Shown here: one piece after another, positions 919 to 51,039 of the stretch
Position numbering within the stretch: the stretch's first letter is position 1
How the letters are laid out: each line of letters opens with the position of its first letter
Virus record (IMG/VR): IMGVR_UViG_3300008267_013251
Span: 69,594 to 133,593 of that record
From: a virus
Length of the DNA stretch: 64,000 bases
Reading direction: 5' to 3' (one strand)
The notes under the pieces: generated by a model
The model's database searches: none
Seen by the model: the letters and a program-made list of their open reading frames with translations, nothing else
Told to the model about the DNA's origin: nothing
Translations under genes and position numbers: made by a program

Positions 919-1101
919 ATGATCCTGAAACACGCAGCAATCCCTGAAGGTAATGCATTCCCAAATGGAACATTCTTTTTCAAGAGAAGAGTTTTTGGAT
1001 TCCTATGTCCTCAAAGCACAGCGTTTAGGATACACCAAGCGTTAGGATTTGGACATTGGTACAACAGTAATTGTTGGAAGTTCGAGGATTTAAACAATTA
1101 A
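919..1101 (+). CDS. Tiny Trp/Phe-rich protein of the MI-x-K family
   Basis: 60 aa. The start ATG 919 is chosen because the protein then begins MILK, as in other members of a small-protein family found here (2988, 5387, 5569, 5754, 5939). The C-terminal end GHWYNSNCWKFEDLNN carries the Asn/Ser-rich stretch with a Trp near the C-terminus that several members share. It is followed 22 bp later by a gene with a good ribosome site. No known domain. Coding status is inferred from the family pattern and gene spacing. Confidence 0.5.
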   Translation: MILKHAAIPEGNAFPNGTFFFKRRVFGFLCPQSTAFRIHQALGFGHWYNSNCWKFEDLNN

Positions 1102-1123
1102 CTCATTTATTTATGGAGGAATC

Positions 1124-1345
1124 ATGTTTACATCAGAATATCCAGAAGAAGAATACATCTCAGTTGGAAAACTAATTGAGATTCTATCTGACCTCGACAA
1201 AAGCCAACTAATAAAAGTAAATTCAAACCAAAGACTTAGTGTTTACTCCAGTATGGCATTTGAGACTGGTGGCAAAGCTATTGGTCAAATTAAAATTGGA
1301 GAAGAAACATATGAACCAATATCTGTCTATATCGGTGAATTTTGA
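1124..1345 (+). CDS. Hypothetical small acidic phage protein
   Basis: 73 aa, start supported by GGAGGA spaced 4 bp before the ATG. The sequence has a helical segment (KLIEILSDLDKSQLIKV) followed by a likely beta-rich part ending in YEPISVYIGEF. Resembles small phage proteins that begin with an ISVGKLIE-L-type helix, but I cannot name a family. It sits between a tiny MI-x-K protein and the 1366 gene. Confidence 0.65.
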   Translation: MFTSEYPEEEYISVGKLIEILSDLDKSQLIKVNSNQRLSVYSSMAFETGGKAIGQIKIGEETYEPISVYIGEF

Positions 1346-1353
1346 ATAAAATG

Positions 1354-1361
1354 TATAAATA
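1354..1361 (+). promoter_or_regulatory. T4-late-like promoter box TATAAATA
   Basis: Exact TATAAATA, followed by TCAT and then the ATG of the 1366 gene. In T4, late promoters have this box at about -13 to -6, which would put the transcription start at or beside the ATG here. No ribosome site lies between box and ATG. Confidence 0.5.
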
Positions 1362-1365
1362 TCAT

Positions 1366-1509
1366 ATGAAAACATTTAAAGAATGGCTACTGGTTGAGAA
1401 AAAAGTTGAAATTGTAACCTGCACTAAAAAAGTAGTAAAGATTCCTAAAGACAAAAATGAGAAAGAATTTCTCATGAAAAAATTTGTCAAAGGTTCCAAA
1501 AACAATTAA
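1366..1509 (+). CDS. Small protein with capsid-targeting-like N-terminus
   Basis: 47 aa, beginning MKTFKEWLLVEKK and otherwise Lys-rich. The N-terminus strongly resembles the T4 internal-protein capsid-targeting sequence (MKTYQEFIAE), which is cut after a hydrophobic-x-Glu site by the prohead protease; here LVE would be the equivalent site. An in-frame ATG exists at 1351 but is less likely, as it lies ahead of the TATAAATA box; the box ends 4 bp before ATG 1366. After removal of the leader about 36 basic residues would remain, fitting an internal DNA-associated peptide. Role is inferred. Confidence 0.6.
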   Translation: MKTFKEWLLVEKKVEIVTCTKKVVKIPKDKNEKEFLMKKFVKGSKNN

Positions 1510-1538
1510 TATGTAGTCCACATAAAGCTGGAGGCGGT

Positions 1539-2297
1539 ATGTTTCGCAAAGGATTCGTGCGAGATGATGGCAAGATTTTTTGGTCCTATAAATCAAGTAA
1601 AAATAAAAAGAAATACCAAGTCTGGTTGACTAAAGAAAAGTTCGACCAGTACGAATCAGCCAGAATCACAAGTTATAAAAGAAGAATTGAAAAATATAAA
1701 AAAAATCAAGAAAAATTACCAATTGAACAAAGAAATTTTAAAGGCAAGTACAATCCAGAAACTGGCTTGTACTTCATTTGTTTGCATGCAAGTGGAACGC
1801 CTAAATTTGGCACTCTTGCAGAACTCGAAGCATACAAACTAAAAAGACGAGAACAACAAAGAATTGCCTATGAAAAAAGGAAAAGTAAAATTCCCCCACC
1901 AAATGTTTGTTTAGGCGATAAGCATCCGTCTATTCCAGATTTAGTAGTAGTTGAAATCAAAAACCATAAAGTTAAGTATGGACCAGTAGAAAAACTGCAA
2001 AAGCGCAGAGAAAGAATTAAATTACTTTCAACTATTTACAGGCAAAAAAAGGGCAAAGAAATTGTTGAAAAATACAAACAAATTAGGCATGAAAAACAAA
2101 AACAACGCAAGGAAAATCCACACTTAAAATTCAGCAGAGGAGATGTCAATCCATTGACCAAATGGAAATTCTGGACATACTCAGCTTTAGGCAACGAGGT
2201 TTGGCTACCCCCTGAAGAGTTTGACAAAAAAAGAGCAGAACATAACAAAAAAGTAATTGCTGCATATCACGCTAAGAAACAGCTAGCACGAAGCTAA
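1539..2297 (+). CDS. Lys/Arg-rich protein made of four degenerate repeats
   Basis: 252 aa with GGAGGCGGT just before the ATG. Four repeats of about 55-60 residues can be aligned by eye: each has a short sheet-like segment (GKIFWSYKSS, TGLYFICLHAS, PDLVVVEIKN, KWKFWTYSALG), then a W/F-[LT]-x-x-E-x-[FY]/L stretch, then a strongly basic helix rich in Lys, Arg and Gln (for example EFDKKRAEHNKKVIAAYHAK). The protein is very basic and may bind nucleic acid. No catalytic motif or named family recognised. Confidence 0.75.
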   Translation: MFRKGFVRDDGKIFWSYKSSKNKKKYQVWLTKEKFDQYESARITSYKRRIEKYKKNQEKLPIEQRNFKGKYNPETGLYFICLHASGTPKFGTLAELEAYKLKRREQQRIAYEKRKSKIPPPNVCLGDKHPSIPDLVVVEIKNHKVKYGPVEKLQKRRERIKLLSTIYRQKKGKEIVEKYKQIRHEKQKQRKENPHLKFSRGDVNPLTKWKFWTYSALGNEVWLPPEEFDKKRAEHNKKVIAAYHAKKQLARS

Positions 2298-2313
2298 ATT
2301 AAAACAGGTTTCT

Positions 2314-2499
2314 ATGCACATATTCAATTTTCACAAGTATGTTTTGAGTGATTTGAATGATTGCCATTTTTCTGGTAATTTTTCAGGTGATGAAGCGTAT
2401 AGCAACAGTTTCGTAATATTTTTAAATCCATTTTCCAGACCTACAGTAAGCAGAGTTTTTAAAGGATCGACTCAATCTAATTTTGGATTCTGGAGTTGA
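2314..2499 (+). CDS. Tiny Ser/Phe-rich protein, member of the small-protein chain
   Basis: 61 aa, ending TQSNFGFWS, similar to the Trp-containing ends of the neighbouring tiny proteins. Its TGA at 2497-2499 overlaps a TTG start at 2496 (TTGA), which supports coding in a chain. Ribosome site is weak. No recognised domain. Confidence 0.45.
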   Translation: MHIFNFHKYVLSDLNDCHFSGNFSGDEAYSNSFVIFLNPFSRPTVSRVFKGSTQSNFGFWS

Positions 2500-2675
2500 C
2501 TCTTAATATTCCATTTCTGAAAGGCAGATCAACTGTGTTTGCAACACAGTCACAAATGTCTTGGTTGAATACAGCTTGGGGAAGCTGTCGGATAAATGGC
2601 ATGGGAAGATCAGAAGTCTTTGCTGGTAATAACCATGACTGTTGGAATTACAGCAAACTTTTTGGAAGGTGGTAA
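2496..2675 (+). CDS. Tiny Trp/Asn-rich protein with TTG start
   Basis: 59 aa from a TTG at 2496 that overlaps the previous stop. It contains SWLNTAWGSCRINGMGRS and ends NNHDCWNYSKLFGRW, matching the Asn-rich, Cys-Trp motif of the proteins at 919 and 5569. The TAA at 2673-2675 overlaps the next ATG (TAATG). An internal ATG giving a 39-residue product is possible. Function unknown. Confidence 0.45.
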   Translation: MTLNIPFLKGRSTVFATQSQMSWLNTAWGSCRINGMGRSEVFAGNNHDCWNYSKLFGRW

Positions 2676-2821
2676 TGGAAAATCGCATCAAAGTTTTCAG
2701 CCATTGGTGTGGCCTCAGTAGCTTCATCAGAATGTATCCAAAATCATGTTTTATTGGCATAACATACTACTCAGGGGCATTCGTACTAGATAAGACTAGA
2801 TGCGAAATTTGGGGGGATTGA
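2675..2821 (+). CDS. Tiny protein in overlapping chain
   Basis: 48 aa beginning MENRIKVFSHWCGLSSF and ending KTRCEIWGD. It starts in a TAATG overlap and ends in a TGATG overlap with the 2821 gene. The Ser/Trp/Cys content is like its neighbours but the sequence match is weak. No known family. Confidence 0.4.
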   Translation: MENRIKVFSHWCGLSSFIRMYPKSCFIGITYYSGAFVLDKTRCEIWGD

Positions 2822-2991
2822 TGACACTCACATCGTCTGAAATCAGTCATTTACTAGGCGCTTTACAGTCCATGAAGGACGAGGGTTATTATTATGGAAA
2901 TAAAGAGCAATATTGGAAAAGACATGATGTAATAGTTGCCAAATTACAAAAACAATTAGAGATTCTAAAAAATAAAAAGGTTGCGAAATGA
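2821..2991 (+). CDS. Small helical hypothetical protein
   Basis: 56 aa. ATG 2821 is preferred over the upstream ATG at 2800 because GGGGGGA lies just before it and it forms a TGATG overlap with the previous gene. The sequence (SSEISHLLGALQSMKDEG, then a Lys/Gln-rich helix) is unlike the tiny Trp-rich proteins and looks like an ordinary phage protein. Its TGA overlaps the next ATG (ATGA). Confidence 0.6.
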   Translation: MTLTSSEISHLLGALQSMKDEGYYYGNKEQYWKRHDVIVAKLQKQLEILKNKKVAK

Positions 2992-3164
2992 TATTGATCT
3001 ATAGTTTGTCAAGTAAGAATTCAGTTTTCGGTTCAGATCGTAATTACTCAGTTCAATTTCAAAGAGAAAAATACAGGTCTTCAGAATTCGGTTTTTTTGA
3101 GTCAAGACTCAGAAGAATTTATGCCAGATTAGCTCTTGGAGCCAATTTTGCTCATGATAATTAA
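2988..3164 (+). CDS. Tiny MI-x-K-type protein
   Basis: 58 aa starting MILIYSLSSKNSVFGSDRNYS, rich in Ser, Phe, Arg and Tyr. The start is fixed by an ATGA overlap with the 2821 gene. The end overlaps by 36 bp with the convergent membrane-protein gene at 3129. It shares the MI-opening and composition with the proteins at 5387-6127. Function unknown. Confidence 0.5.
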   Translation: MILIYSLSSKNSVFGSDRNYSVQFQREKYRSSEFGFFESRLRRIYARLALGANFAHDN

Positions 3165-3347
3165 TATCAAAACAGTCAGACACCAGTTTGCTCCTATTAA
3201 AATAGGAACCCAAGCACAATACCACCAATCTCCGTATTGAGGAAAAATATATTTAATTGCAAATACCAACGCAATCAATTCTATTCCTAGAAGTAGGAAA
3301 TAAATTGATAAAAATATCAAAATAACCAATCTAGCAAGACTTTCCAT
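3129..3347 (-). CDS. Small membrane protein with two transmembrane helices
   Basis: 72 aa with two long hydrophobic stretches (about residues 5-32 and 46-66) separated by a polar YGDWWYCAW loop, and a short basic C-terminal tail KIGSKS. It is transcribed away from the RCC1 gene at 3407. No Shine-Dalgarno is obvious. Could be a holin-like or superinfection-type protein, but nothing specific supports this. Confidence 0.5.
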   Translation of the reverse strand: MESLARLVILIFLSIYFLLLGIELIALVFAIKYIFPQYGDWWYCAWVPILIGANWCLTVLILIIMSKIGSKS

Positions 3348-3406
3348 AATAAACTATATATTTAATGAGTTATGTAAGATAAATATTTGTATTTAGGAGT
3401 TATATT

Positions 3407-4726
3407 ATGGCACAATTATGGTTATGGGGACAAAATAACTATGGACAGCTTGGAGACAATACTACAGATGACAAGTCATCTCCAATACAAACAATAGCTG
3501 GAGGTAGTGATTGGGTTGCGGTAGCCGGTGGCTACGACATGACACTTGCCTTAAAAAATGATGGAACAGTCTGGTCTTGGGGGTTTGACAGCCATGGGGC
3601 CTTGGGACAAAATACAGAGAATGTTGACCTTTCTTCTCCTACACAAATAGGGACTGATACTGACTGGGCGTTTATAAATGCTTCAAACTGGTACTGGGGC
3701 ATATGTGCGGGAATTAAGAATGATGGGTCGCTCTGGCTGTGGGGTTACAACAATTATGGAAATTTAGGAGATGATACTTCTGATGATAAATCATCTCCAG
3801 TTCAAACGGTTGCTGGAGGAAATGACTGGGCATCCGTCTCTTGTTCTGCAAACCATACTGGCGCTATAAAAACTGATGGCACATTGTGGATGTTTGGAAG
3901 AAACACTTATGGGGAACTTGGTGATGATTCTATTGATCAAAAGTCCTCTCCAGTTCAAACTATTGCTGGTGGAAACGACTGGGCACAAGTATCTTGTAGC
4001 AGAAGAAATACCGCTGCTATAAAAAATGATGGGACTCTCTGGTTGTGGGGGCGTAATTCAGAGGGCCAGCTAGGGGCAGAAAATACTGTCAATGTTTCAT
4101 CTCCTGTGCAAACCATTTGTGGAGGAAATAATTGGGCGCAGGTATCTGTTGGAAGATACTTTACAGGTGCAATCAAGACGGATGGCACCCTCTGGATGTG
4201 GGGAGGAAATAGTTATGGCGCACTTGGAACAGGAGACACACAGGATTATTCATCCCCTGTGCAGACTATTTGTGGAGGAAACAACTGGGCACAGGTATCA
4301 TGCGGTTATGACTTCACAGCAGCACTCAAGACAGACGGCAGCTTGTGGGTTTGGGGAAGAAACGGTGATGGACAGGCAGGAAACGAAAGCACTATTGATA
4401 TTTCTTCTCCAGTCCAGACTGTAGCTGGTGGCAATGGCTGGACATTTGTTTCAACTGGATATCATGGTACTACTGCATTGGGAAGCGCATATAATAATTA
4501 TCAAATAAAACTTACACCACCAAACAGAAACGAGGGCACAGAAGGCTACATGGATTATTGGATTGTAGGTGGAAAATCAATACAAAGAAGTGGTTACATA
4601 GAAACTACTGACGGGATTCAAATTAGAAAAGTAAATGAAGCTATGGATGGAGACACAATCACTAATGAACCAGAGAAGCTTACTGATCTCCAAAACAATG
4701 GCCACTACTTCATAGTAGAAAACTAA
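3407..4726 (+). CDS. RCC1-repeat beta-propeller protein
   Basis: 439 aa with about seven RCC1 repeats between residues 1 and 365. Each repeat reads roughly SSPVQT-x-[AC]GG-N-x-W-x-x-VS-x-G-x-x-x-T-[GA]AIK-x-DGTLW-x-WG-x-N-x-x-G-QLG. RCC1 repeats fold into a seven-bladed propeller used for binding proteins or glycans. The last 75 residues are a different short domain (YMDYWIVGGKSIQRSG onward). There is no signal peptide or enzyme motif. AGGAG precedes the ATG and GATAAATA lies about 25 bp farther up. Two related RCC1 proteins sit at 37-45 kb, so this is probably a virion adhesin or tail decoration. A strong terminator follows. Confidence 0.85.
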   Translation: MAQLWLWGQNNYGQLGDNTTDDKSSPIQTIAGGSDWVAVAGGYDMTLALKNDGTVWSWGFDSHGALGQNTENVDLSSPTQIGTDTDWAFINASNWYWGICAGIKNDGSLWLWGYNNYGNLGDDTSDDKSSPVQTVAGGNDWASVSCSANHTGAIKTDGTLWMFGRNTYGELGDDSIDQKSSPVQTIAGGNDWAQVSCSRRNTAAIKNDGTLWLWGRNSEGQLGAENTVNVSSPVQTICGGNNWAQVSVGRYFTGAIKTDGTLWMWGGNSYGALGTGDTQDYSSPVQTICGGNNWAQVSCGYDFTAALKTDGSLWVWGRNGDGQAGNESTIDISSPVQTVAGGNGWTFVSTGYHGTTALGSAYNNYQIKLTPPNRNEGTEGYMDYWIVGGKSIQRSGYIETTDGIQIRKVNEAMDGDTITNEPEKLTDLQNNGHYFIVEN

Positions 4727-4732
4727 AAACGA

Positions 4733-4765
4733 AACCGCCCCTTACGATTTTTGTAAGGGGCGGTT
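4733..4765 (+). terminator. Rho-independent terminator after RCC1 gene
   Basis: 13-bp perfect stem AACCGCCCCTTAC / GTAAGGGGCGGTT with a GATTTTT loop, followed by TTAGTTT. GC-rich stem in an AT-rich genome. It lies between convergent genes and could serve both strands. Confidence 0.85.
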
Positions 4766-4770
4766 TTAGT

Positions 4771-4941
4771 TTATGATTGTAAAGACTTGAGTTTTTGTTC
4801 TAATGCAATTTTCAAACAAATAACAAGTAAATCCCCTTTTTCTTCTGCTACATTAACTTTTTCCTTCTCACTCATACCTTCGGTTAAAAGCGGATCGATC
4901 TCACTATTCAATAAATTTGTTACACTAGCTGGAATTTCCAT
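4771..4941 (-). CDS. Small helical hypothetical protein
   Basis: 56 aa (begins MEIPASVTNLLNSE, ends EQKLKSLQS), with GGAGG five bases before the ATG. Predicted all-helical and acidic. Stands alone on the minus strand between the terminator and the membrane-protein gene. No family recognised. Confidence 0.65.
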   Translation of the reverse strand: MEIPASVTNLLNSEIDPLLTEGMSEKEKVNVAEEKGDLLVICLKIALEQKLKSLQS

Positions 4942-5077
4942 AATACCTCCGTTGGTTAATTTTATATATTATTAATAGAAAACATAATTTATATATAAAT
5001 TTTGGTGATGTATCGTCAATATAGGCATTAATGCAGCCAGAAAAAATTTTTAATATCTTTGCTAATAGGTGAATTCG

Positions 5078-5377
5078 ATGGGTATTCTAGCTTACATTTT
5101 CTGTGTTTTAAATGTTTTTCTTGCTTTGATAAGTATCTTCCCTTGTATCATGGGTGCTGCTATGGGAGCAGATAGCCCACAAGCACAAAACAACCCTTTG
5201 GCAATCGCCATGTGTTATATATTTCTAACATTTCCTGTAGTCTGCTTCATATGTGGAATTTTGCCACCAGTTTTAAATCACTTTAAAATGCCTATCTTAG
5301 CCGTTGGTTTTGGGCTTTGGCCTTGGATTGAAGCAATTTCTGTGATAGGATTCATGTGGTTTAACGACACCAATTGA
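5078..5377 (+). CDS. Small integral membrane protein
   Basis: 99 aa from ATG 5078, which has AGGTG in front; a GTG at 5069 is the other option. Three hydrophobic segments are visible (about residues 2-27, 45-65, 70-94) with a short polar loop GADSPQAQNN between the first two. No recognised domain; topology suggests an inner-membrane protein. Confidence 0.55.
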   Translation: MGILAYIFCVLNVFLALISIFPCIMGAAMGADSPQAQNNPLAIAMCYIFLTFPVVCFICGILPPVLNHFKMPILAVGFGLWPWIEAISVIGFMWFNDTN

Positions 5378-5386
5378 AATACAATC

Positions 5387-5569
5387 ATGATTTTGAAATA
5401 CATTTCTTGGTCTGCTACCAATTTGTTCGGCAATAGATTTGTTGCTGCATCTTTTTTTGATATGAGTTATAGTTTTTCTTGGAAAATTCCAGCACAAGAA
5501 AGCAGAGAAAGATCAAACGCCTTTAGCAGAGCTAATTACGACAGCAGAAATTGGAGTGATGGAATTTGA
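5387..5569 (+). CDS. Tiny MI-x-K-family protein
   Basis: 60 aa starting MILKYISWSATNLFGN and ending NYDSRNWSDGI. It aligns along its length with the next gene: MI-[LF]-[KR]-x-x-SWS, then LF, a DM-x-[YF]S-[FY]-x-W core, FS-x-x-N-[YF] and a final R-x-WS. Rich in Ser, Phe, Asn and Trp, unlike the Lys-rich proteins of the rest of the window. Its TGA overlaps the next ATG (TGATG). Confidence 0.55.
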   Translation: MILKYISWSATNLFGNRFVAASFFDMSYSFSWKIPAQESRERSNAFSRANYDSRNWSDGI

Positions 5570-5757
5570 TGATTTTCAGAAACACATCATGGTCATCCAT
5601 TTACTTATTTGAACAAGGCTTTATGTTCAGCTTTGCACATGTAGGAGATATGGATTTTTCATATCATTGGACTAAACATTTCCAACAATCAAAACAGATG
5701 AATACTGTTTTTTCTCTAAACAATTTTAGAGGAAGATGCTGGAGCAAAAACCTATGA
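5569..5757 (+). CDS. Tiny MI-x-K-family protein
   Basis: 62 aa starting MIFRNTSWSSIYLFEQG, closest paralogue of the 5387 protein. The start ATG 5569 lies in a TGATG overlap with that gene, and the end forms an ATGA overlap with the next. Contains the DMDFSYHW core and NNFRGRCWSKNL end. Function unknown. Confidence 0.55.
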   Translation: MIFRNTSWSSIYLFEQGFMFSFAHVGDMDFSYHWTKHFQQSKQMNTVFSLNNFRGRCWSKNL

Positions 5758-5933
5758 TACATAAAATTAATTGTAGATGTACAAAACCACATCGATCTAG
5801 CTGGTTTAGTGGAAGAGGTATGAGCCCTATTTTTGCAAGGCAAAGCTATTTTTCTCCACTTTTTCATGTACATGTTTATTGGTCCAGCAGTTTTTGTGGA
5901 AGTCAAGGCAGCATTTATAGATGGCCTTGGTAA
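5754..5933 (+). CDS. Tiny MI-x-K-family protein
   Basis: 59 aa starting MIHKINCRCTKPHRSSWF and ending GSQGSIYRWPW. ATG 5754 overlaps the previous stop (ATGA). Rich in Ser, Phe, Trp and Cys. More divergent than the 5387/5569 pair, but the length, opening and Trp-rich end agree. Confidence 0.5.
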   Translation: MIHKINCRCTKPHRSSWFSGRGMSPIFARQSYFSPLFHVHVYWSSSFCGSQGSIYRWPW

Positions 5934-5938
5934 ACAAA

Positions 5939-6127
5939 ATGATTTTCAAACAATCGATTGCGTATTCACTTCATTGGAATCATGAAATAAATTATAGCTT
6001 TTTATCTCAAAAATCTTTTCATTTTCCATTTAATATTGGAAGTTTTTGTTCTAATAATTTTAAGTTGAATAAGCAAGAAAGCGCATTCGGGCTGCTGTTA
6101 AATTCAGACGCAAATCAACTTGCATAA
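5939..6127 (+). CDS. Tiny MI-x-K-family protein
   Basis: 62 aa starting MIFKQSIAYSLHWNHEINYSF, the last of the tandem group. Starts 5 bp after the previous stop. The core NYSFLSQKSFHF and SNNFKLNKQ resemble its neighbours; the final Trp is absent. Function unknown. Confidence 0.5.
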   Translation: MIFKQSIAYSLHWNHEINYSFLSQKSFHFPFNIGSFCSNNFKLNKQESAFGLLLNSDANQLA

Positions 6128-15900: not shown

Positions 15901-16234
15901 TAGGATTTACAGAATAAACACCTTAACTAGTCCAGAAGTTTATTATCCTGTAGCGAAAAACTTGGAAATTGATAAAAACATTTTTGAAACGCTGAGAGAA
16001 AGAAGAAAACTTGCAAGCATAATACAAAGATCACAAGAAGACTATATCAAAAATAATGATGTTTCAAATCTGGAAAAAATTAAATCCGCTGAACAAGAAT
16101 CGCAAAATATGGAAAAAAACTTAGAGGCTAGTATAGTTGATCAAATAGATAACATCTGCAAAGAAGTTAAGGTTTTTGATAATTACAACATCAGCTTGCG
16201 TTTCCGTGATTTTATTCATTTTAGTGATATATAA
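12953..16234 (+). CDS. Large SNF2-like (superfamily 2) helicase/ATPase with capsid-targeting-like N-terminus
   Basis: 1093 aa. Walker A GDETGVGKT near residue 418, DEAH in VLDEAHKVK near 523, motif III NMTATLSANK near 555, and C-terminal motifs V-VI QKGGTGIDF and QAEGRIYRI near 950-985 identify an SNF2/Swi2-type DNA translocase. The first 400 residues contain two ferredoxin-like or repeat regions of unknown kind. It begins MIDFISWKRNLIES, where LIE could be a prohead-protease site. Between the helicase lobes is a long insertion (about 590-860). A packaged helicase would recall phage P1 DarB, which enters with the DNA and blocks restriction; that is inference. No methylase domain seen. Confidence 0.85.
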   Translation: MIDFISWKRNLIESEQDQKSSDIEMLLKLAYDILTRTAIPDNEKTYVEETILKDGKIKSPSDLVGLEISKLLGIIEKYKPQAKTNNAYLAIKRRLGSPVINPTFTLQPFKRKTRIFGPVSLSEPEQPKKLASAAEVTEVTIGKTEKPSKHMSIFEVIVPKDAEIPFKALTQRFPKLLEKSNEQERTFVFKLNNSDPTIIDNFIEIIRTLNSAKVNYEKFLHVVNDQKALATLIPNPSKPFSGQLPLWVENGLGASAVIKLPYLLNKEKTDQAKKEIKWLFYNHPEVKDGIEYKPPVFSGDGTISVYGNRVQYFNIIQELKKLGFNTKQLEDVYESKVSDVFLESKDNPEIYGSIKNAKSGQEKSVALSQFKKMVFAKIPYLKQLEELKKSNLPKGLKLFPKQWEGIAHLYSRSNAINGDETGVGKTIQFLVASKLRMIDSGKKCLVVTLSDLKTQLLQSIEELFGSQEASQVSFDIEKPKNWTIVNYETFQSPKFMIRAGVPDDKKIDDFIQKNIVGNYEVMVLDEAHKVKIAQSIRSIVIAKISKFIPVKYNMTATLSANKPIDIKNQLQVVGHQFGKMSDEDFTHNFIEHTALIANTPAFNKKYNLYNKKVSIIDGNKNKLAPQPVAYEDALKLLAASQEGTTLFMYDDTTDPMTLMLADRDKFLANDKFNKAQEMNRLLHVTGVYDKKTKNQINKKLPKLQKKIVGMKINQEKFCQQVRNISRQKILFDKLPIQKNLNLESVTGWLNNITMPSTKDVMISNFLANKSTISQNVMASQEYNQTTDQNAKNILAKFGINNADDYGIFFAYLFGKSSAKPLTAAEKQKTNITTIRRLIAMSKVPITINKVKQLLKNNAKQIKEESQKISVADDKMQKDTKIVIFTNFKPVAREIIKKTQDALNEFCKQNKMPKCGLEVLGYYGDITDKQLETNKYRFKTDPKVRVIVMTMQKGGTGIDFPNIARNMIINDVFYTPESADQAEGRIYRINTLTSPEVYYPVAKNLEIDKNIFETLRERRKLASIIQRSQEDYIKNNDVSNLEKIKSAEQESQNMEKNLEASIVDQIDNICKEVKVFDNYNISLRFRDFIHFSDI
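16226..16233 (+). promoter_or_regulatory. Possible late-promoter box GATATATA
   Basis: Two mismatches to TATAAATA, 23 bp before ATG 16257, leaving a short leader containing TTGGAG as ribosome site. The same GATATATA lies ahead of the 58923 gene. Confidence 0.3.
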
Positions 16235-16256
16235 GTTATATTAATTGGAGAACAAC

Positions 16257-16913
16257 ATGAAGACAAGACTCGAATTGCAATACGATGTAGCTTTAAATGC
16301 TCTTTCCAACGGTTTGACAGAAGCTGGAATAACAGTTGGTGATATAAACACTTTGCGAGTAAAAGGTCAAAGATTAGTTGAAACCAATCGCAACCAATAT
16401 AATAGCGTATTCGGAATGCTTGAAAATCTTGTCGCACAAAGAATTAATGAAGAACAAGCGCCAGCAACAGCGCCAGCTTCTCCAGCAGCAGCCAGCAAGG
16501 AACAGCAAGCATTTGCTGCTAAAAGCACACAATTACAAACTGCAATAAGAAATTACTTCGCAAGTATATTCAAGCTAGGTGGCGGTCCAAGCGTACAAGA
16601 ACAAATGAAAAAGATGATTGGAACTGTTAATAGCTTCACTAATCAAGTACTACAAAAGAAGTTTGGCGTAGGAGGAAAGCCAGCTGTTGATCCTATGGCA
16701 GCAAAAATGGCCCAGTCTTCTGCTAAACCACCAGCTGGAAAACCTCAAGGCGCACCCGCACCAGCTGGAACCCCAGCCAAACCTGCTTCTGGTCAGCCAC
16801 AATACAATCCATTAGCTACACAATCAGTAGCTACAACTGATATCAAAGCAGGCCAGCAACAAGCTGCACAGCCTCAATATAATCCATTTGCAGCACAATC
16901 AGTAATAGCCTAA
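16257..16913 (+). CDS. Ala/Pro/Gln-rich protein, probable virion or scaffold component
   Basis: 218 aa starting at ATG 16257 (GGAGAAC just upstream). Helical N-terminal 75 residues, an Ala/Pro-rich hinge (PATAPASPAAASKEQQ), a helical middle and a low-complexity tail containing two copies of QPQYNP-[LF]-A-[TA]-QSV. Composition suits a scaffold, head or linker protein. It directly follows the SNF2-like helicase and may be co-expressed. No named family. Confidence 0.65.
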   Translation: MKTRLELQYDVALNALSNGLTEAGITVGDINTLRVKGQRLVETNRNQYNSVFGMLENLVAQRINEEQAPATAPASPAAASKEQQAFAAKSTQLQTAIRNYFASIFKLGGGPSVQEQMKKMIGTVNSFTNQVLQKKFGVGGKPAVDPMAAKMAQSSAKPPAGKPQGAPAPAGTPAKPASGQPQYNPLATQSVATTDIKAGQQQAAQPQYNPFAAQSVIA

Positions 16914-26945: not shown

Positions 26946-27320
26946 TCATCGCAATTTGAAAGTTAAATCATTGTCTTCCTTTACGATGAGCCCTTGTGTT
27001 TTCAAACAACTCAATCTGGATTTCAACATGCTACGAAAAACTTTTTGCGATGCCATCGACTTATATCCAGAGTTTAAAACAAACAACATAATCGATGAAA
27101 AAGTTAAACCATCAGGTGAACTTTTTAATGCATTTAAAATTGTGCTATCAAGGCTGTCTGGGTTCTTTGCTCCTTTCGGACGACCCGGACCTTTTCTTGT
27201 ATTCACCTCAACTGTGCATGGATAGAAAGTATCAATAAGAGAATGAATTGTTGCCAACTCGCTCTCCAGCTGATTCTTCTTATTCATCAAGTAAGAAAAG
27301 GATAACCCTATCTGCTTCAT
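26946..27320 (-). CDS. AT-hook / winged-helix-like DNA-binding protein
   Basis: 124 aa. An N-terminal helix, then an AT-hook-like RKGPGRPKGAKN (residues 43-54), then a helical domain with LSSPDG-type turn and SRLSCLKTQGLIVKEDN that looks like a winged-helix recognition end. AGGAT precedes the ATG. It is placed between sigma-like gene 27325 and clpX, suggesting regulation. The AT-hook is minor-groove binding in A/T tracts; function inferred. Confidence 0.55.
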   Translation of the reverse strand: MKQIGLSFSYLMNKKNQLESELATIHSLIDTFYPCTVEVNTRKGPGRPKGAKNPDSLDSTILNALKSSPDGLTFSSIMLFVLNSGYKSMASQKVFRSMLKSRLSCLKTQGLIVKEDNDLTFKLR

Positions 27321-36158: not shown

Positions 36159-37070
36159 TCAAGTAGCTGGTGCTGATGTGATATTCAATATTCCATTTTG
36201 TTTCCAACCAACAGAGTTAAACAACTCAATTCTATCATCTATGAAGACATTAGGTAAATTTGTTGTTCTGTTTGCTAAACAAGTAGCAGTTTGAATATTC
36301 ACAAGCAAGCTAAATTCAACCGAATTAGCAACATATGAAGGGCAGAATATATTTTGTGGCATCCAAACTTGTACATTTGTATTAAGAGCAGCATCTGTGC
36401 CAAGATATCTCTTAATAAGTATATTCAATGTCCATATAAACTCTTGATTAAAGTTATCTAAATCATTATTACAATTTATATTAACTATTATTGTCCATTT
36501 TTCTGTTGTGCTGCCATCTGCGTTTCTTCCTTGAAGGTGCGTAGTATGAATGAAATTACCTGATGCTTGATCGTAATAACATGTCAAATTAGGATTGAAC
36601 GCAATATTGCTGCGTTGACAAAAACTCGTCAATGCAGAACTTGTATTGAGGTTTGTTTGCAAAGTGAACTTCAAAGGCAAGTTCTTGCAGCCACATTGAG
36701 CAATAGATGATGTAGTACTGAGTGGGTTCAATGCCTGACCGCTGGTGGGAGTGAAGTATGGAACAAAATAGAATATATCACCTATAAATGTACTCGATTG
36801 TTCTTGCTCTCCCAAATATGCTGGCAAATAGGCAGAACCAGATATAAGCATCCCACCAGAACCTGTATAGTATGTTGTTTTTGCTACATCGACTGTTGTA
36901 ACAGTAGCAACACCACTAACAATTGGGCCTCCAAGTATGTTATATAAAGTATATGGAGCATATGGGCTTGCAGATAATAGAGAATATGTACCTATATCAA
37001 TATCGCCAACGCTTCCTGTATAAGATGTTATATCTGTGCTGTAAGATAAAAGATATGTTATTGAAGACAA
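36159..37070 (-). CDS. Probable tail/virion protein
   Basis: 303 aa from TTG 37070 (13-bp overlap with the end of the giant adhesin gene). Ser, Thr, Tyr and Gly-rich, with repeated TSYTGS-, TYYTGSG-type strands and a few Cys. Composition and position next to the giant gene suggest a tail fibre part or chaperone. No named family. Confidence 0.55.
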
Positions 37071-40000
37071 GCCGATTGTTGAGCCTCCAGTAAAATAGCC
37101 TTTATAACCTCAGTACCGTAATTTAATTTTTCAGTTGATGCAATAAAACCACTTGCACCTTGGCCTGCTGTCATATAGCCAACAAAGAAATTACCATGAC
37201 AAGAAGCTGAAAAAGCCCTTGGTATTTTCAAATCTGCTGATGTAACACCACCAACAGTTTCTACACTATATGTAATTTTATCTGTTGTAACATATACTGA
37301 AAACAACCCTGTATATCCTGCCGAAAAATATCCTCTCGCATCGTTGCCGTCTAGACTGCATATGCCATAACGAGCAGGGCTAGACAAATTAGCGCCAGCA
37401 AGAGATGCTATCCCATCTGTTGTGTAATTTATTCTTTCAAAAGATGAGAATATTGTTGATCCAGCGATGTCCAAACCGCCAGCTATATACCCAAAAGAAC
37501 TTCCTTGAGATACTGCTCCCGGTCCAAATCTACTTGTCAACATATTACTAGAATTTGCAGAAAAAGTTCCAGTTGAATATAGTATTTTGTCTGCTCTGTT
37601 TGATGATATTGATACACCACCAATACCACCTAACATATATCCTTTAGTTTGGTTGCCCGTGCAGCCTACACCACCATATCTAGCTTGTGACAAAGAATTA
37701 GATGTATATGCGTCCATCACATTTGTTGCGTATATTATTTTATAAATACTGGATACTTGTGTTGTGTTATAGTTTGATCCAGTCGATCCCCCTGCAAAGT
37801 AACCTGCCGTTGCACCACTACCCGGATTTATTTTCGGATAATGCAAATAATCTCCATATATGCTGCCAAGATAATTTGCAGAACCGAAAACGATCAAGGA
37901 GCCGGAACCTACATATTCAGAATTTTCAAGTATAGCAGTACCAACTAAAGATATATTTTCAACTATGTCATACGCAAGGCAGTAGTCGGCACATTCACTA
38001 TCAAAACAAAACGGAGTCTCTTCCAACTGAGGACAAGATTCATTTAAAATTCCTTGCTCTATCAAATACTGTTCATCATTTTTATAGACTGGTTTTGTGA
38101 ACTTTTGGAACTTCTTAATTGGCCAATTCCAGTTTTGTTTTTTCAATTGTTCGCAAGCCTCACGGGGACTTCTCGCAATCAAGGTTACAATAGACCTTTT
38201 CCTACATTCGGGAGATTCTTCATTGAATGGACCATTACAGTTAGTTAAGTCTAAGCACTCTCCTTCGATTCTATAACCATAATAAATTTCTTGTGCAATA
38301 CTGTAAAATATAGGCAGGGAAACATTTATAACTGCTAATACTTTATAAGTTATCGGCAAAGAAAGTGTAAAGCTATAATTATTATAAGTGCCACCTAAAG
38401 TCACTCCACCTGAAGATGTATATGCATATGAATTACATGAAAAAGTTGCAGAGCCATATATTATTATTGTTCCCTGTGTGTCTATATTTGTATTAATTAT
38501 GAATTGAGCATTTCCAGAAATTAATATGTTGCCTTGTGATAAGTATATTGGTTGCGGAACTGTGATCTGAGAAACCGCAGCCAAAGCATATCTTGCTTGA
38601 GACAAAACAACAGGCGATAAAGATGAAATTACATCTGTGGAAAATATAATTTTATCAATTACATCCGAAATAGTAGAAGAACTCCTTCCTCCACCTATAA
38701 AACCTTTTGCGTTAGAGTATCCACCTTTGGTTAAATTAACCCCAGCCAACGCATATCTTCCAGAACTAAGCACATTTGTCAGAGCAGATGTTGTGTCAAC
38801 AGCAAAAGCTATGGTATCAACGGAATCATAATTTTCTCCAATCCCACCTAAAAAGTAACCCTTATCGAATCTGTTTCCTATACCAGTTAAATATCTCTTG
38901 CCATCTGTCAAGCTTGCTGATTCAGTATTTCTACTTATTTCAGTAGTATAGTAGAATATTTCTGTCAACCTTGTGCCGAAGCCTGCTTCAATGCTGCCTC
39001 CACCAACATATCCCTTGTAACTATTTCCATCTATCGTACCCATGGCATTTCTTGCTGTCTCCAAGTTCGCACTTGTCAACGCAAGTTTTGTTTCTGTGGC
39101 AAACAATACTTTGATAGTATTTTCTGTTTCACTACCTGTGAAACCGCCAACGAAGTAACCTTTAGATATACCTTGTGATATTCCACCTAGTGTGTCAGTA
39201 ACAGTATCTAAATCCAAACTTGTCACTAAATCAACTACATCTGTAGAATATGTGAGCCTTTCTGTAGAAAGAATGTAAGCACCAGTATTGCCACCAGAAA
39301 AGTAACCAACCGTTATGTTTTCTGATAAACCCGCTTGTTTTTCTCTGGCAACATTAAATGCTGCTGTCGTACTTACCAAAGCCTCAGTCGTATAATCTAT
39401 TTTATCAAAAGTTGACACTACGGTTCCGGCGACCGAACTTCCTCCAGCAAAGTACCCATAATCTCCATCTCCAATTAGAGGTGGAAAATCAAATTCAACA
39501 AAAACCCTGCTCACAGCTGAGAGGCCTGCCCTTGGCTGATCAAGAGCTTGATCTGATAGTAGCGATAAGGCATTAGTAGCAAAATCAAGTCTATATGTAG
39601 TGTCAACTATCGTGTTTTCTTGATTTCCTCCTGAAAAATAACCTCTACTGTAATAATCCGATGCGCCAGCAGAACTTGATACTCTTTGCTGTAAATTTAC
39701 AGTAGTCAAAAGACTTGTTACTTGTGTATTATAATTTACCTCATAAATCCTATTAGACAAAATTGCAGCGCCTGTGTCTCCACCAGCAAGATATCCTTTA
39801 TTGTTGTTTCCATCTATGCTTATCATAGCGGATGTGGCAATTTCAATCTTTGCCGTGGTAACAGCATTTAGCGTATCGTTCGAGTAATTCAAAAACTCTG
39901 CTGTTTGCAGCATGGTCCCGCTACTGTAACCACCTATAAAATATCCGTCCAACCAAGCGTGAGATACTGATCCCATGTATCTTTTTTGTTCGGATAATAC

Positions 40001-43000
40001 AGGAGATGTAAGAGAATTAGTTGTGTCAATTGAATAGTCTATCTTATCAAAAGTATCTACCTGAGCAGAGGAATAGCCTCCAGCGTAATAGCCGTATGCG
40101 CTGTTGCCATGCAAAGATGCCATTCCCGATCTTATAGTAGATAAATCTGCTGTAGTGACAGCAGCAATAGTATCATCTGCATATGCGATGCGATCTGTTG
40201 TATTTACAGATGCTCCTGTGTAGCCTCCTGAAATATATCCTTTAGAATAGGAGTTTGTAGTGCCCGCTGAGTAAACCCTTGCCTGCGACAGGGTGGCCAC
40301 AACAGCCGACATAGTTTCTGTGTAGTAGAGCATCCTGTCTACTTTGTTACTAGCTGATGTCTGTATTCCACCTGCGAAATAAGCAGAAGCTCCAAATGTG
40401 TTTATAGGACTAGGAACTGGACTAGGTTCAGGTGCTGGCGCTGGGCTCGGAGATGGTGATGGGCTCGGAGACGGTGATGGGCTCGGAGATGGTGATGGGC
40501 TCGGAGATGGTGATGGGCTCGGAGATGGCGATGGGCTCGGAGACGGTGTTGGGCTCGGAGACGGTGTAGGTGTGGGTGTCGGTGTCGGGACGGGCACAGG
40601 AGTCGGAGGAGTACCATATAAAGCTAAAAATCCGTTCTGAAAAGTACTAATTTCAGTCCATTGAGTAGTAATGTCTGCAACAGTATTGACAGGGGAAGTA
40701 TATTGTAACTGATTGTCTGTTCCCAAAGCACCGTAATATCCACTTCCCCAAACCCAAAGAGAGCCATCAGACTTTATAGCGCAAGCATTTGAAGAATTGA
40801 CTCCATATTTTACTTGCACCCATGTATTACCTCCGATGTATGTTTGAACTGGCGATGATTTACTTGAAGTAGTACCATCACCCAAAACACCGCTTGCCCC
40901 AGCCCCCCAACAAAATAATTGTCCATTATTTCTAATAGCTGCCGTATTTGAAAAACCACAAGACACATAGACCCATTGCTCACCTGCGACCAACAAGTCT
41001 GGAATAATTCTGTCTGCTGTGTCGTTTAATCCAAGCTGACCTTGGTCATTTCTTCCCCAAACATATAATTCATTCGAAGGATAAGCAATCGCAGCAGCAT
41101 GATAGTAGCCACACGAAACTTGGCTCCATTGTGAATTTGTTGCTTCTTGCACAGGAGAACTCTGACTTACTCCATGACCACTAGGCAGAAGGATACCATT
41201 GCCTAATTGCCCCCAGTAATTATCTCCCCAGAGCCAAAGACTTTTGTCACTAGCTTTTATTGCAGCTGTAAAATTTGCTCCAGCTGAAACAAATTTCCAA
41301 TCATATGAAGTATCTAAAAGACTCGGACTTAATACATTTGTTGTATATCCATTTCCACATTGTCCGAAATAATTGTAGCCCCATGTCCACAAAGACTGAT
41401 CGTTCCCTATTCCAGTAGTATGAAATCCACCACAAGATATCATACTCCAATTAGAAGCGCCAGTAGTTACATTGACAGGACTATTAACAAAAGGACCGAA
41501 ATTACCACCTAACTGACGAGAACCATTTGCTCCCCACATCCACAACTTATCGTAGGAATCTATTGCTCCAGCATGTAAGTTGCCAGAAGATATACCTTTC
41601 CATGATGATCCCGCTGCTATATTTTGAACAGGGGAACTTCTACTAACTATTGTTCCATCACCTAAAGTTCCATTTTGATTGTAACCAGAACCCCAAATAT
41701 TACTTCCTTCTGTCGGGGTCGGAGTAGGAGTCGGAGATGGAGAAGGTGTTGGCAAGGGCAAAATGCCCAAGCCTGCTGAACCATAGGCATTTCCAGAAAC
41801 TTTAAACCATTGATTGCCACCAGCAATAGTCTCGACAGGAGAGTCATAAGAAACATTATTATTTGTTCCAAGCTGCCCAAAATTATTTTGACCCCAATTC
41901 CAGAGACTATTATCAGTCTTCAAGGCTCCAGTCCAATTGCTGCCAGCATCAACAGCAGTCCAGTTATATCCTCCCGCTTGGGTCTGTACCGGAGAACTAA
42001 AAGCTAATGTAGAGCCAGTATAATTAACCCCACACGCTCCATAAATGTTACTTCCCCAACACCATAGTTGTCCTGTTCGGGTAATTGCAGCTAAGTGTGC
42101 ATCTCCAGCAGCAATAGTACTCCAAGGCCCAGTCAAAATAGCCACATTTATTGGTGAACTTTTACTAACAACAGAATCATCTCCAAGTTGACCTATGTAG
42201 TTGTATCCCCAAGTGTAAAGAGTGCCGTCTGTCTTAAGAGCAGCACTAAACCTATCTCCAGCTGCAACATATTGCCAATCTGTATCTATGCCAATTTGAA
42301 CAGGGCTGCTTCTATTCGTGGTTGTCGAATCACCAAGGGCTCCAAATTCATTGATTCCCCATGCCCATAATTTACCAAAGACATCAACAGCCAAAGTGTG
42401 ATTTTTGCCAACTGAAACATCAGCAATATCAACTTTTGTTGAAGAAAGTAAATTTACTGGATTTGTATTATTTCTACCGCATTCACCAAATGTATTGTTA
42501 CCAGCCATGTAAAGAATGGCTGTGTTTGAAATAGCAGCAAAATTCGTATCCCCAGCTGATATTTTATTGAATTTCAAGCCACCAAGCTGAATTGGAATAG
42601 AAGAGTTTGTAGGACCAAGTGCGCTATAACCATAAACTGGATATCCCCACCCATACAGGTATCTGTTGGAATCAAGAGCAATTTTGTATGAGTTTCCTAC
42701 ATCTACATCAACCCAATCTTGTATGAGTCCTCCAACCTGTACTGGTGAGCTTCTTGCAATTACGCCCGAAGCTGCGCTAGTATTATCTCCAAGCTCTCCA
42801 TTTAAATTTGTTCCCCAAGTATAAATCTGATATGTTGGTGTTGGTTCTGGTGGTGCGGGAGTTGATTCTGGCTCAGGGGCTGGTGTTGGTGTTGGTACTG
42901 GAACAGGTGCGGGCACAGGTGAGGGAGATGGACTAGGTGATGGAGAAGGGCATGTGTAAATTGTTCCAATTACACCAACTCCAATTCGATATCCCGGTGG

Positions 43001-43558
43001 CACCTCTCGCAACATACTGCTGTATGTTACCCGTAATTTTCGTGTTTCCTCATTGAAAAAAATCGGAGGGTCACCAAATTTCTCACGATTGCGTCTTAAT
43101 GTTTCTCCCCTTTCAGGTTCAGGCACTCTTTGACATAAAAGTTGCCCTAAAAGCCAACCTTCGCAAACCTTGGTTCCTTCTTCTGTCCATATTGGATACC
43201 CACCTGACTGAGTTGGCTCCAACCTACTTACTCTCAATAAGGAAGTAGTTCCCCCTCGACACGATGGATAAGGCTCTAATCCCTCAAGATTGCATTCTCT
43301 TGGACCAATCTCGTATAACTGAATACATCCACAACAATTATTGTCAAAAGTTATGTCAAAACCTACACTCGTTGCATCATCACCTAATGGAAATATTTCC
43401 CATAGTTCACGGGTACCGCTGGGCACAATGTTAAGACTGGAACACGCCGGTTCATTAATAAGAGTTTCTGGATTAGGGCTATAATTTGGATTCAGTTGTG
43501 CCCGAAAAGTACGGACTTCATTAAAGAATTCTCCAAAATAAAAACCATTGCAAGCCAT
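37058..43558 (-). CDS. 2166-aa giant RCC1/kelch-like adhesin, probable tail fibre or receptor-binding protein
   Basis: Domains: residues 1-200 Cys-rich unique N-terminus; 201-243 Pro/Thr/Ser linker; RCC1 propeller 245-600; short Pro/Thr linker near 600-618; second RCC1 propeller 620-980; long (SP)n/(TP)n linker 983-1049; many kelch-like repeats of about 50 residues (GY-[FI]-[AS]GG, then D-x-I-x-[YF]-T-x-D, then ARxxLAAVSxx) from about 1060 to 1660; a Cys-rich middle near 1756-1869; more kelch-like repeats to the end. GGAG precedes the ATG. Propeller repeats joined by Pro-rich hinges are typical of adhesins and phage fibres. Binding partner unknown; the GC-rich linkers differ from the AT-rich surroundings. 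Confidence 0.8.
40443..40568. repeat. 18-bp minisatellite encoding the (Ser-Pro)n linker
   Basis: Seven tandem copies of an 18-bp unit (consensus GGGCTCGGAGATGGTGAT on the + strand) with a few substitutions. On the coding strand this reads as repeated Ser-Pro pairs. The unit is in frame, so copy-number change would lengthen or shorten the linker without frameshift. Confidence 0.9.
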
Positions 43559-43661: not shown

Positions 43662-45107
43662 CTAGTTATTAGGAGGTGCAAACTGAATCTCTCCCAATCC
43701 AGCTGTAAAACTATAACCAGCAGAAACATTTGTCCAAATTCCACCTGTAGCTAATGTTTGTACTGGAGAAAATTGAATGCCATAAGTGTTATTACCGATT
43801 TGTCCACTACTTCCTAGCCCCCATGTCCATAAAAGGCCATCATCTGTAATACCTGCTGCATGATTACTACCCGCTGCAACCTTAGTAAAAAAACCACCAA
43901 CTATATTTTGTACTGGAGAGCTTCTTGGTAATAAATCTGGGGAAGCAAGCTGTCCGAAGGTATTATTTCCAAAAGCCCATATTTTGCCATCATAATCAAC
44001 GACTTGTGTGTGTGAATTTCTTGTGTCTACATAAACCCAAGATTGAGTTGCCATGACTGTTTGAACAGGGCTGCTTCTATTAACAGTATCATTTGTGCCT
44101 AGCTGTCCATATGAATTATTTCCCCATACCCATAGCTCTGCTCCTGTTGAACTATTATTTTTCAAGGCAGCAACAACGAACTTTCCGCATGCAACTTGAT
44201 GCCAGTCAGTATCAGCACCAACTTGAATAGGAGATTTTTCGTATTTTTGAGTTAATAAAGGCAACGCAAAATAACCATCATTATTATTTCCAAGCTGGCC
44301 GTATGAGTTATTTCCCCACACCCAAAGCGTCCCGTCCGTTTTTATGGCAGCAGTATTTAAATATCCACACGAAACACTAGACCAAGTTGTATCCGAACCA
44401 ACCTGCGTAGGACTACTCCTCGTATCCGTATCATTCTGTCCTAAAATACCAGCTATATTATAACCCCAAGTAAAAAGTGTATTGTCGCTCTTTATTGCAG
44501 CTGTATGAAATGTTCCACAAGATATTTCAGACCAATTATTTGCAGTTCCTATTAAAACAGGAGATGTACGAGTAATATTTGTACCATCTCCAAGCTGTCC
44601 GTTGTCATTCATCCCCCACATCCACAAATAGCCATCTGTGGTAATTGCCCCAAAATGATTTCCACCAGCAGAAATTTTAGAATAGTAAAAATTACTATCG
44701 ATAGTTTGTACGGGGTAACCATATGATGGTGGAAATCCATATGGAAAATTAAAATTACCAAGTTGCCCATAACTGTTATCACCCCACAACCAGAGATTCT
44801 TAAATACTGCTGGAATAGGTGGCGGTATCGGGACTAAAGGAGTCGGTGTCGGAACAGGAACCGGGGCAGGTGTGGGCGTAGGCGTTGGTGTCGGCGTTGG
44901 TGTCGGCCCCGGAGGAGTCGGAGTCGGTACAGGCACAATAGGTGCTCCGGGGCTAAAAGGAGCAATTGGAGAAACGGATGGAGTCTGTGCAATTATCGTA
45001 TCATCAGGTATGCGAACGCCACCATCCTTTTTTTCGAAAAGGATGTCAGGTGTTTGAATTCCATAATGATTTATAATATCATCTTGAACTTTTCGTTTTG
45101 ATGGCAT
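43662..45107 (-). CDS. RCC1-repeat protein with Pro/Thr linker
   Basis: 481 aa. N-terminal 50 residues (KVQDDIINHYGIQTPDILF), a 40-residue (TP)n/(VP)n linker at about 55-95, then seven RCC1 repeats (WGxNSYGQLGxNxTxNRSSPVQT-type) to the end. Compare the 3407 protein, which has the same repeats without a linker. Likely a tail or surface component. GAGAG precedes the ATG. Function is inferred from repeats and place beside the giant adhesin. Confidence 0.85.
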   Translation of the reverse strand: MPSKRKVQDDIINHYGIQTPDILFEKKDGGVRIPDDTIIAQTPSVSPIAPFSPGAPIVPVPTPTPPGPTPTPTPTPTPTPAPVPVPTPTPLVPIPPPIPAVFKNLWLWGDNSYGQLGNFNFPYGFPPSYGYPVQTIDSNFYYSKISAGGNHFGAITTDGYLWMWGMNDNGQLGDGTNITRTSPVLIGTANNWSEISCGTFHTAAIKSDNTLFTWGYNIAGILGQNDTDTRSSPTQVGSDTTWSSVSCGYLNTAAIKTDGTLWVWGNNSYGQLGNNNDGYFALPLLTQKYEKSPIQVGADTDWHQVACGKFVVAALKNNSSTGAELWVWGNNSYGQLGTNDTVNRSSPVQTVMATQSWVYVDTRNSHTQVVDYDGKIWAFGNNTFGQLASPDLLPRSSPVQNIVGGFFTKVAAGSNHAAGITDDGLLWTWGLGSSGQIGNNTYGIQFSPVQTLATGGIWTNVSAGYSFTAGLGEIQFAPPNN

Positions 45108-50082: not shown

Positions 50083-51039
50083 TTATTCCTCGATGATGTA
50101 GCTGATGAAATACGATCTGGTGTCTATTTCACCAATTAAAATGGTAAACTCCGCATTTTTCCATGTAAGTTCGGCATAATGGTCGAATATCGGTCCTTGC
50201 CAGTCTTTCCCATGTGGAAATGCTTCACATAAGCGTATGAATTTATAAGCATCCGTACCAGATAATGATTCCATATATGTGATAGGTTTAACATTTATTG
50301 CATCACAATGAACATAATCAGAAAGACATCTTAAAAGTTTCGATATTGTTACCCTTTGAAAACCATGTCTTTTTAAAGAAATTGATTCTTCTATGCTTTT
50401 TATTGTTGAACAAATTTCTTTAGAAATATTTGTACATCCCATTTTATACATGACATCTTTTTTATTTTGCAAATCATCTTTCAAATTATCAATCAAATTT
50501 GAGTTGTGATAATAATTTTCTATATTGAATATATTCGAAGAACTTGATATTGTTGTATTGTTTTTAATATGTATCGACTGATTTTTCTTATTTGTTCTTG
50601 AAAGCCATCTGGTCTTTTCTGGAAGAAAGCGAGTATACACTTTAGTAACTTCTGGATTACCTACAAAATTCAAAAAATCTGGTTGTATTTCATCTATGAT
50701 AACTTTCGATAGCGATGTTAAATCCTTTTTGAGCGAAAAAGCTTTTTCTTCACAAAATTGTATGATTGAATTAATTTCATGACACTTTTGAAAAAAAGCA
50801 GGTGTAAAAACAGTTTCCAAAAAACCAGATAATCCTTTATGGTTTAAATCAATTGCATTAAAAAATTCATGAATCCTAGCAAAAGGATTATTGTAATTTT
50901 TAGACACAGGGCTACTTAATAGTGCTAATAAATTTTTCAAGCAAGATACAGAGCTAAATGTATCTATTTCTTGTTTTGTTTCACACAAGATTGAAGAATA
51001 CAAAAAATTATTAGCTTGTTTAATTTGTTCTAGATTCAT
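50083..51039 (-). CDS. Hypothetical protein
   Basis: 318 aa, Lys/Ile/Asn/Ser-rich and mostly helical. Contains TTISSSSNIFNIENYYHNS and a C-terminal sheet (ELTWKNAEFTILIGEIDTRS). Its start overlaps the IF3 gene by 20 bp, so it is likely co-translated with it. No domain recognised. Confidence 0.6.
   Translation of the reverse strand: MNLEQIKQANNFLYSSILCETKQEIDTFSSVSCLKNLLALLSSPVSKNYNNPFARIHEFFNAIDLNHKGLSGFLETVFTPAFFQKCHEINSIIQFCEEKAFSLKKDLTSLSKVIIDEIQPDFLNFVGNPEVTKVYTRFLPEKTRWLSRTNKKNQSIHIKNNTTISSSSNIFNIENYYHNSNLIDNLKDDLQNKKDVMYKMGCTNISKEICSTIKSIEESISLKRHGFQRVTISKLLRCLSDYVHCDAINVKPITYMESLSGTDAYKFIRLCEAFPHGKDWQGPIFDHYAELTWKNAEFTILIGEIDTRSYFISYIIEE

Follow-up and report, generated by a model that had tools for sequence, protein, structure and literature searches.

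Chained arrays of tiny tryptophan- and serine-rich proteins constitute an undescribed family in large uncultured phages

Introduction

The closest described parallel to the locus considered here is the ORFanage of the T4-like cyanophage S-PM2, in which about 33 tiny open reading frames (ORFs) with no assigned function, unique to that phage, occupy one same-strand stretch (PMC4503421; AJ630128). The ORFanage is lost in laboratory passage with a gain in fitness (PMC4503421). Another is the host-takeover cluster of phage SPO1, in which 26 genes remodel the host, with the product of one binding the ClpCP protease (PMC6873191). Here we report a chain of tiny ORFs in an uncultured phage from IMG/VR, the 145,015-bp record IMGVR_UViG_3300008267_013251 (G000), of which positions 69,594 to 133,593 (64,000 nucleotides) were analyzed as “the window.” A preliminary description had picked out nine short ORFs between window positions 919 and 6127 as a chain of tiny paralogous proteins; all nine were found where it had placed them, and they form the tail of a larger same-strand array, with about 31 array-type ORFs in 16 kb. 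The core members are almost certainly selected protein-coding genes of a single new family.

In layout, the array resembles the ORFanage, each being an accessory stretch of chained tiny ORFans on one strand with many 4-nt overlaps. The proteins differ, those of the ORFanage being acidic (D+E, 17.8%; W+S+F+C+N+R, 21%) and mostly starting with MT; moreover, comparison with the array profile gave no match better than an E value of 0.3 among the 33 proteins. The SPO1 host-takeover genes do not, to our knowledge, constitute a paralogous family. Their likeness to the array lies in the clustering of genes, which serve host remodeling there and might do so here. A third comparison is offered by the internal head proteins of phage T4, which are small and basic and combine one conserved end with a variable remainder. 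The array proteins share these features; however, the conserved end of the T4 proteins is a cleaved N-terminal signal, and their copies are few.

We found no description of such arrays in the open-access literature, and, in line with the earlier impression that no known family fits, searches of Pfam, PHROGs, NCBIfam, PADLOC, and PDB gave no credible counterpart for the ORFs. Hence, the arrays constitute an undescribed protein family, although their layout was already known from the ORFanage. Very small phage genes are commonly taken for noise or omitted from annotation; in this case, an entire family that is under protein-level selection and, in each of several large uncultured phages, takes up many kilobases has been missed by all of these collections. 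The combination of junction motif, chain test, composition, and codon-position test applied below provides a tested recipe for such genes.

Chained organization and selection on the protein sequence

The array ORFs are joined head to tail by TGATG, ATGA, or TAATG junctions, with the predicted ribosome-binding site lying in the last codons of the preceding gene (TGCTGGGGG...ATATGAT), and the junction TGCTGG...ATATGAT recurs between array genes. Chains of tiny same-strand ORFs linked by stop/start overlap take in the array ORFs, with the exception of the one at window position 919: 28 ORFs lie in chains of three or more, against a mean of 0.18 in dinucleotide shuffles (maximum of 3 in 100), and the same test returned 0 chained ORFs on the reverse strand. 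Synonymous codon choice fits that of the long genes of the phage (z = 10 versus a base-composition null), with per-ORF codon scores of −1.04 for the array, −0.99 for long genes, and −1.21 for spurious ORFs.

To measure selection, we compared family members from other phages, the closely related strains G029 and G031, rather than the nine window ORFs, for which no relative with sequence differences was found. Frame conservation and dN/dS in related phages had been put forward as a check; no frame is broken between G029 and G031, and three ortholog pairs are under purifying selection, with frame-0 dN/dS values of 0.22, 0.28, and 0.04. Their proteins are 67 to 94% identical despite many synonymous changes, and 51 of 90 nucleotide differences fall at third codon positions (p ~5e-6). 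In the +1 frame the pattern is the opposite, with dN exceeding dS. Taking the low frame-0 values together with this opposite +1 pattern, we conclude that the ORFs represent a genuine protein family. The same codon-position test ruled out a second-frame or transmembrane reading of these pairs.

Relationships among the array proteins

Nearly all array proteins are 45 to 76 aa long and basic, with a mean net charge of about +3.4 to +4.6. Their composition, previously flagged as unusual, is extreme: W+S+F+C+N+R make up 46% of residues in the 31 ORFs, D+E 6%, and K 4%. They are rich in Trp (5 to 9%), Ser (13 to 17%), Phe, Cys, Asn, and Arg and contain few D, E, V, T, or L residues, and the same composition is maintained across 26 to 45% GC. 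A scan of other genomes by composition alone was nonspecific, with many antisense ORFs scoring high.

In an all-against-all comparison of the 31 ORFs, 16% of pairs reached p≤0.05, against 2 to 6% in shuffled sets and 6 to 7% in reversed or unrelated control sets, and part of this excess persists after removal of both ends. The proposed paralogy thus stands, though pairwise similarity is significant for only a subset. An M-I-[LIF]-[KR] start, a C-W motif, and a W-x3-[IL] end recur among the ORFs, and a profile of these features recognizes part of the set. The C-W motif occurs near the C terminus 9 times against 0.4 expected, and the serine preceding it is encoded by AGY and TCN codons alike, which points to selection at the protein level. 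The MI start and the GGAG-bearing end (W-G/W-S) are partly imposed by the ATGA/TGATG overlaps and ribosome-binding sites, and therefore some of the resemblance may be convergent.

A profile built without the sequences of this phage placed 7 of its ORFs in the top 15 of 64,570, 5 of them in the array (p ~6e-14); as the individual E values of these seven are weak (0.002 to 1.4), the evidence is their joint ranking. Conversely, a profile built from this phage only (A2) recovered the sequences that had seeded it plus a duplicated fragment and was silent in about 30 other records. Single-protein scans of IMG/VR gave matches only in this phage, and tblastn against cultured phages returned nothing below an E value of 3.

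Arrays in other phages and their turnover

Junction-motif scans of IMG/VR were run with two patterns, the second being stricter. At least three other phages carry such ORFs: G029 and G054 have independent arrays, and L236 contains an example of two ORFs; among the first-pattern matches listed, only G029 and L236 carry them besides the present phage. G029 (20.8 kb, including L243) has twelve array-type ORFs. A T4-type capsid gene, recognized by inspection of the sequence, lies 8 kb from its array; no such gene was seen in the two records of the present phage, G000 and G001. L284/G031 encodes a capsid protein 99% identical to that of G029, along with orthologs of three of its array ORFs. The stricter scan recovered the third array, in G054 (84 kb, 44.6% GC), and the L236 example was recovered by growing the profile. 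In bacterial genomes, the stricter pattern gave 104 matches, 0 of which lie in an array. The chain test detected no array in the relatives G004 to G006, G008 to G012, G030, G032 to G035, G037, G041, the first 400 kb of G039, or the huge phage LR756511. G010, which is about 70% identical in nucleotide sequence to the present phage where the two align, lacks the array region.

Several independent phages thus have arrays, and array makeup varies between strains that are very close. Compared with G029, an otherwise orthologous stretch of G031 contains an additional paralog and an inserted gene of 259 aa, and one unit of G029 is tandemly duplicated (3059/3259/3429). In G000, an 86-nt direct repeat, 87% identical between copies (L008 4685-4770 and 5336-5421), flanks a 190-aa ORF and carries an array-gene end plus junction; the arrangement looks like insertion of the 190-aa ORF by junction duplication. 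The repeated duplication suspected from the window is borne out. One array in G054 separates what is left of a DUF5131 gene (L458 16381-19805, minus strand) into two parts, which cover model positions 1 to 26 and 127 to 243; about 100 model positions are gone, and an array-type N terminus is fused in frame to the second part.

Possible functions

The presence of the ribosome-binding site in the last codons of the preceding gene suggests that each array would be made as one translationally coupled operon. Comparison between genomes further suggests that each could supply a rapidly changing set of accessory proteins, conserved at the ends and diversified in the middle. As the least certain step, we propose that the members might bind various host or defense factors, in host takeover or counter-defense; such targets would give a reason for copies to be gained, lost, and diversified. 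Genes for takeover and counter-defense are typically small, clustered, lineage specific, and quickly replaced; hence, an accessory repertoire aimed at varying host targets is the most economical reading, and we favor it tentatively. A possible link to DNA modification, which commonly counters restriction, is suggested by the G029 array, which includes a Mom-like gene (E value of 2.7e-4, weak and below the Pfam cutoff), and by one of the G054 arrays, next to which lie three cytosine methylases. If the members do target host or defense factors, each array would amount to a ready candidate list for screening.

Several observations weigh against this proposal. AlphaFold2, run on alignments of 11 and 26 sequences, yielded no structure (pLDDT of 51 and 54); because the alignments are shallow and divergent, this result does not separate disorder from an unpredicted fold. 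The PADLOC models of defense systems gave no match, which says nothing on counter-defense. Glycosyltransferases and RCC1-repeat proteins are also found among the neighboring genes, and therefore the DNA-modification link may be fortuitous. Finally, a conserved Trp in every member would be unusual if the targets are unrelated.

A different and rather unlikely possibility is that the paralogs act collectively, as a combinatorial repertoire of sticker-like proteins. One coupled transcript would then supply dozens of proteins that lack a stable individual fold and carry Trp/Phe/Arg stickers with Ser/Asn/Gly spacers; these proteins might, for example, coassemble around host or defense components. 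Such a family was perhaps born by overprinting of a Gly/Leu-rich frame that is still echoed in +1. If true, this would be an unfamiliar use of proteins. We are similarly doubtful that the products are Trp/Arg-rich peptides with the cell wall or membranes as their target, serving as lysis helpers or as antibacterials against competitors. Their small size, basic charge, and abundant Trp would suit such a role, but the array proteins lack a transmembrane stretch, with 19-residue hydropathy reaching 1.05 at most, no lysis gene was recognized alongside them, and 31 members are many for lysis.

The conserved ends and variable middles, together with the position of the G029 array 8 kb from a capsid gene, recall proteins of the virion, for example internal head or decoration proteins, that share a terminal signal and vary in the rest. 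This is improbable in view of their sporadic presence, their gain and loss at the strain level, and the lack of a match to any virion family. Still less probable is that the products are irrelevant, with the ORFs serving to maintain ribosome occupancy of a long transcript or to couple the ordinary genes interspersed among them. The tight coupling, those interspersed genes, and the very divergent middles would be consistent with such an arrangement; however, it leaves unexplained why amino acids are conserved between orthologs and why so extreme a composition is constant over a wide range of GC content.

We see very little room for the +1 frame, hydrophobic and Gly/Leu rich (S-W-S-W reads as L-G-L-G), being the coding frame or a second one. 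In two arrays it has gene-like codon statistics and few stops; yet it carries 2.6 to 4.1 stops per 100 codons and, in the orthologs, accumulates nonsynonymous changes while frame 0 is conserved. Moreover, a W/S/N/F-rich frame yields a Gly/Leu-rich +1 reading automatically. It is scarcely credible that the ORFs arose by chance, with motifs that merely reflect start codons and ribosome-binding sites in a noncoding or decayed stretch: the overlaps do impose part of the MI start and the W-G/W-S end, and the chained ORFs of S-PM2 likewise mostly start with MT, but the chain counts, codon use, and cross-phage profile all speak against it, and for the family it is refuted by ortholog dN/dS values well below 1. 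Variable proteins of a diversity-generating retroelement would also have conserved ends and variable middles, but this can be dismissed almost outright, as no reverse transcriptase was found in G000, G001 (the genome being incomplete), or G010 and no template repeat is apparent.

Members of the array in the present phage

The overlapping chain described for the window holds for most junctions, with 4-nt overlaps at 2314>2496 and 5569>5754, 1-nt overlaps (TAATG, TGATG) at 2496>2675 and 5387>5569, and a 5-nt gap at 5754>5939; it fails for the ORF at 919, which stands alone, and for 2675 and 2988, which are linked via an unrelated gene. Where two clusters had been distinguished, we count at least four.

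All window ORFs are on the plus strand. The solitary first one (919-1101; 60 aa, MILK...NSNCWKFEDLNN) belongs to profile A2 and is weakly matched (E value of 0.44) by a profile excluding its own sequence. It is followed by a 61-aa ORF (2314-2499) that overlaps the next by 4 nt; a 59-aa ORF with a TTG start and DCW near its end (2496-2675), which is a profile seed; and a 48-aa ORF (2675-2821), the end of which overlaps the start of an ordinary 56-aa gene (2821-2991) that has no Pfam match. A stretch similar by eye to part of this gene (GEYYGNREQFWKRHERV) is found in a gene inside the G054 array. The 58-aa ORF that follows (2988-3164; MILIYSLSSKN...) has pair similarity to the ORF at record position 60960 (z = 6.7). 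Farther downstream, the 60-aa (5387-5569, ending in NWSDGI) and 62-aa (5569-5757, ending in RCWSKNL) products align end to end, as had been noted, with about 36% identity (Smith-Waterman score of 95; z = 13.6 versus shuffles), and the latter ranks 7 of 64,570 with the profile from other phages only. The last two are a 59-aa ORF (5754-5933; MIHK...) and a 62-aa ORF (5939-6127; MIFK...), the latter a weak profile match (E value of 0.71). By their start, C-W, and end motifs, 5387, 5569, and 2496 are thus seeds or strong matches and 919 and 5939 weak ones; the profile does not recognize 2314, 2675, 2988, or 5754, whose membership is suggested by context, size, start, and composition.

About 22 further array-type ORFs of 46 to 108 aa, which form the main cluster, lie upstream of the window, at record positions 60.0 to 67.4 kb, several of them beginning with GTG or TTG, and ordinary small genes are scattered among the array ORFs. 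Two candidate members occur on the opposite strand to the array, at record positions 26,963 to 27,187 (ending in CSHNWSRKI) and 16,091 to 16,315. The 108-aa ORF at record position 60474, in the array region, also has a relative (35% identity; E value of 8e-9) far from the array (L005 17246-17503, minus strand). A promoter scan performed no better than on shuffles, and Rfam gave no match on the array pieces searched.

Genomic setting

Closely similar DNA was not found in the phage collection searched. A second record, G001 (G001:C1:1-71677), overlaps the right end of G000 at 99.7 to 100% identity and extends about 72 kb beyond it; therefore, the phage is larger than the 145,015-bp record. Just to the right of the window, genes for SpoVR, DUF444, and PrkA are grouped (L009 4985-11421; record positions 137.5 to 143.9 kb), an association known as a bacterial stress operon and found in other large phages too; an uncultured phage of 595 kb encodes a SpoVR with 59% identity to this one. 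The phage also encodes DnaJ. DNA polymerase III alpha occurs in separate pieces, two recognized by Pfam (L006 11968-13605 and L009 2527-3753) and an 843-aa piece recognized by eye (window 59964-62495), possibly representing a split gene.

The window further contains RCC1-type repeat proteins at 3407-4726 (a Pfam match) and, by eye, at 37058-43558 and 43662-45107; one of these has 2166 aa and long Pro-rich repeats. Directly after the RCC1-repeat gene that lies between the two window clusters is a strong terminator-like hairpin (4731-4767). A 252-aa basic protein with no Pfam match is encoded at 1539-2297 and has a look-alike, by eye, in G054 at 50494-51315.

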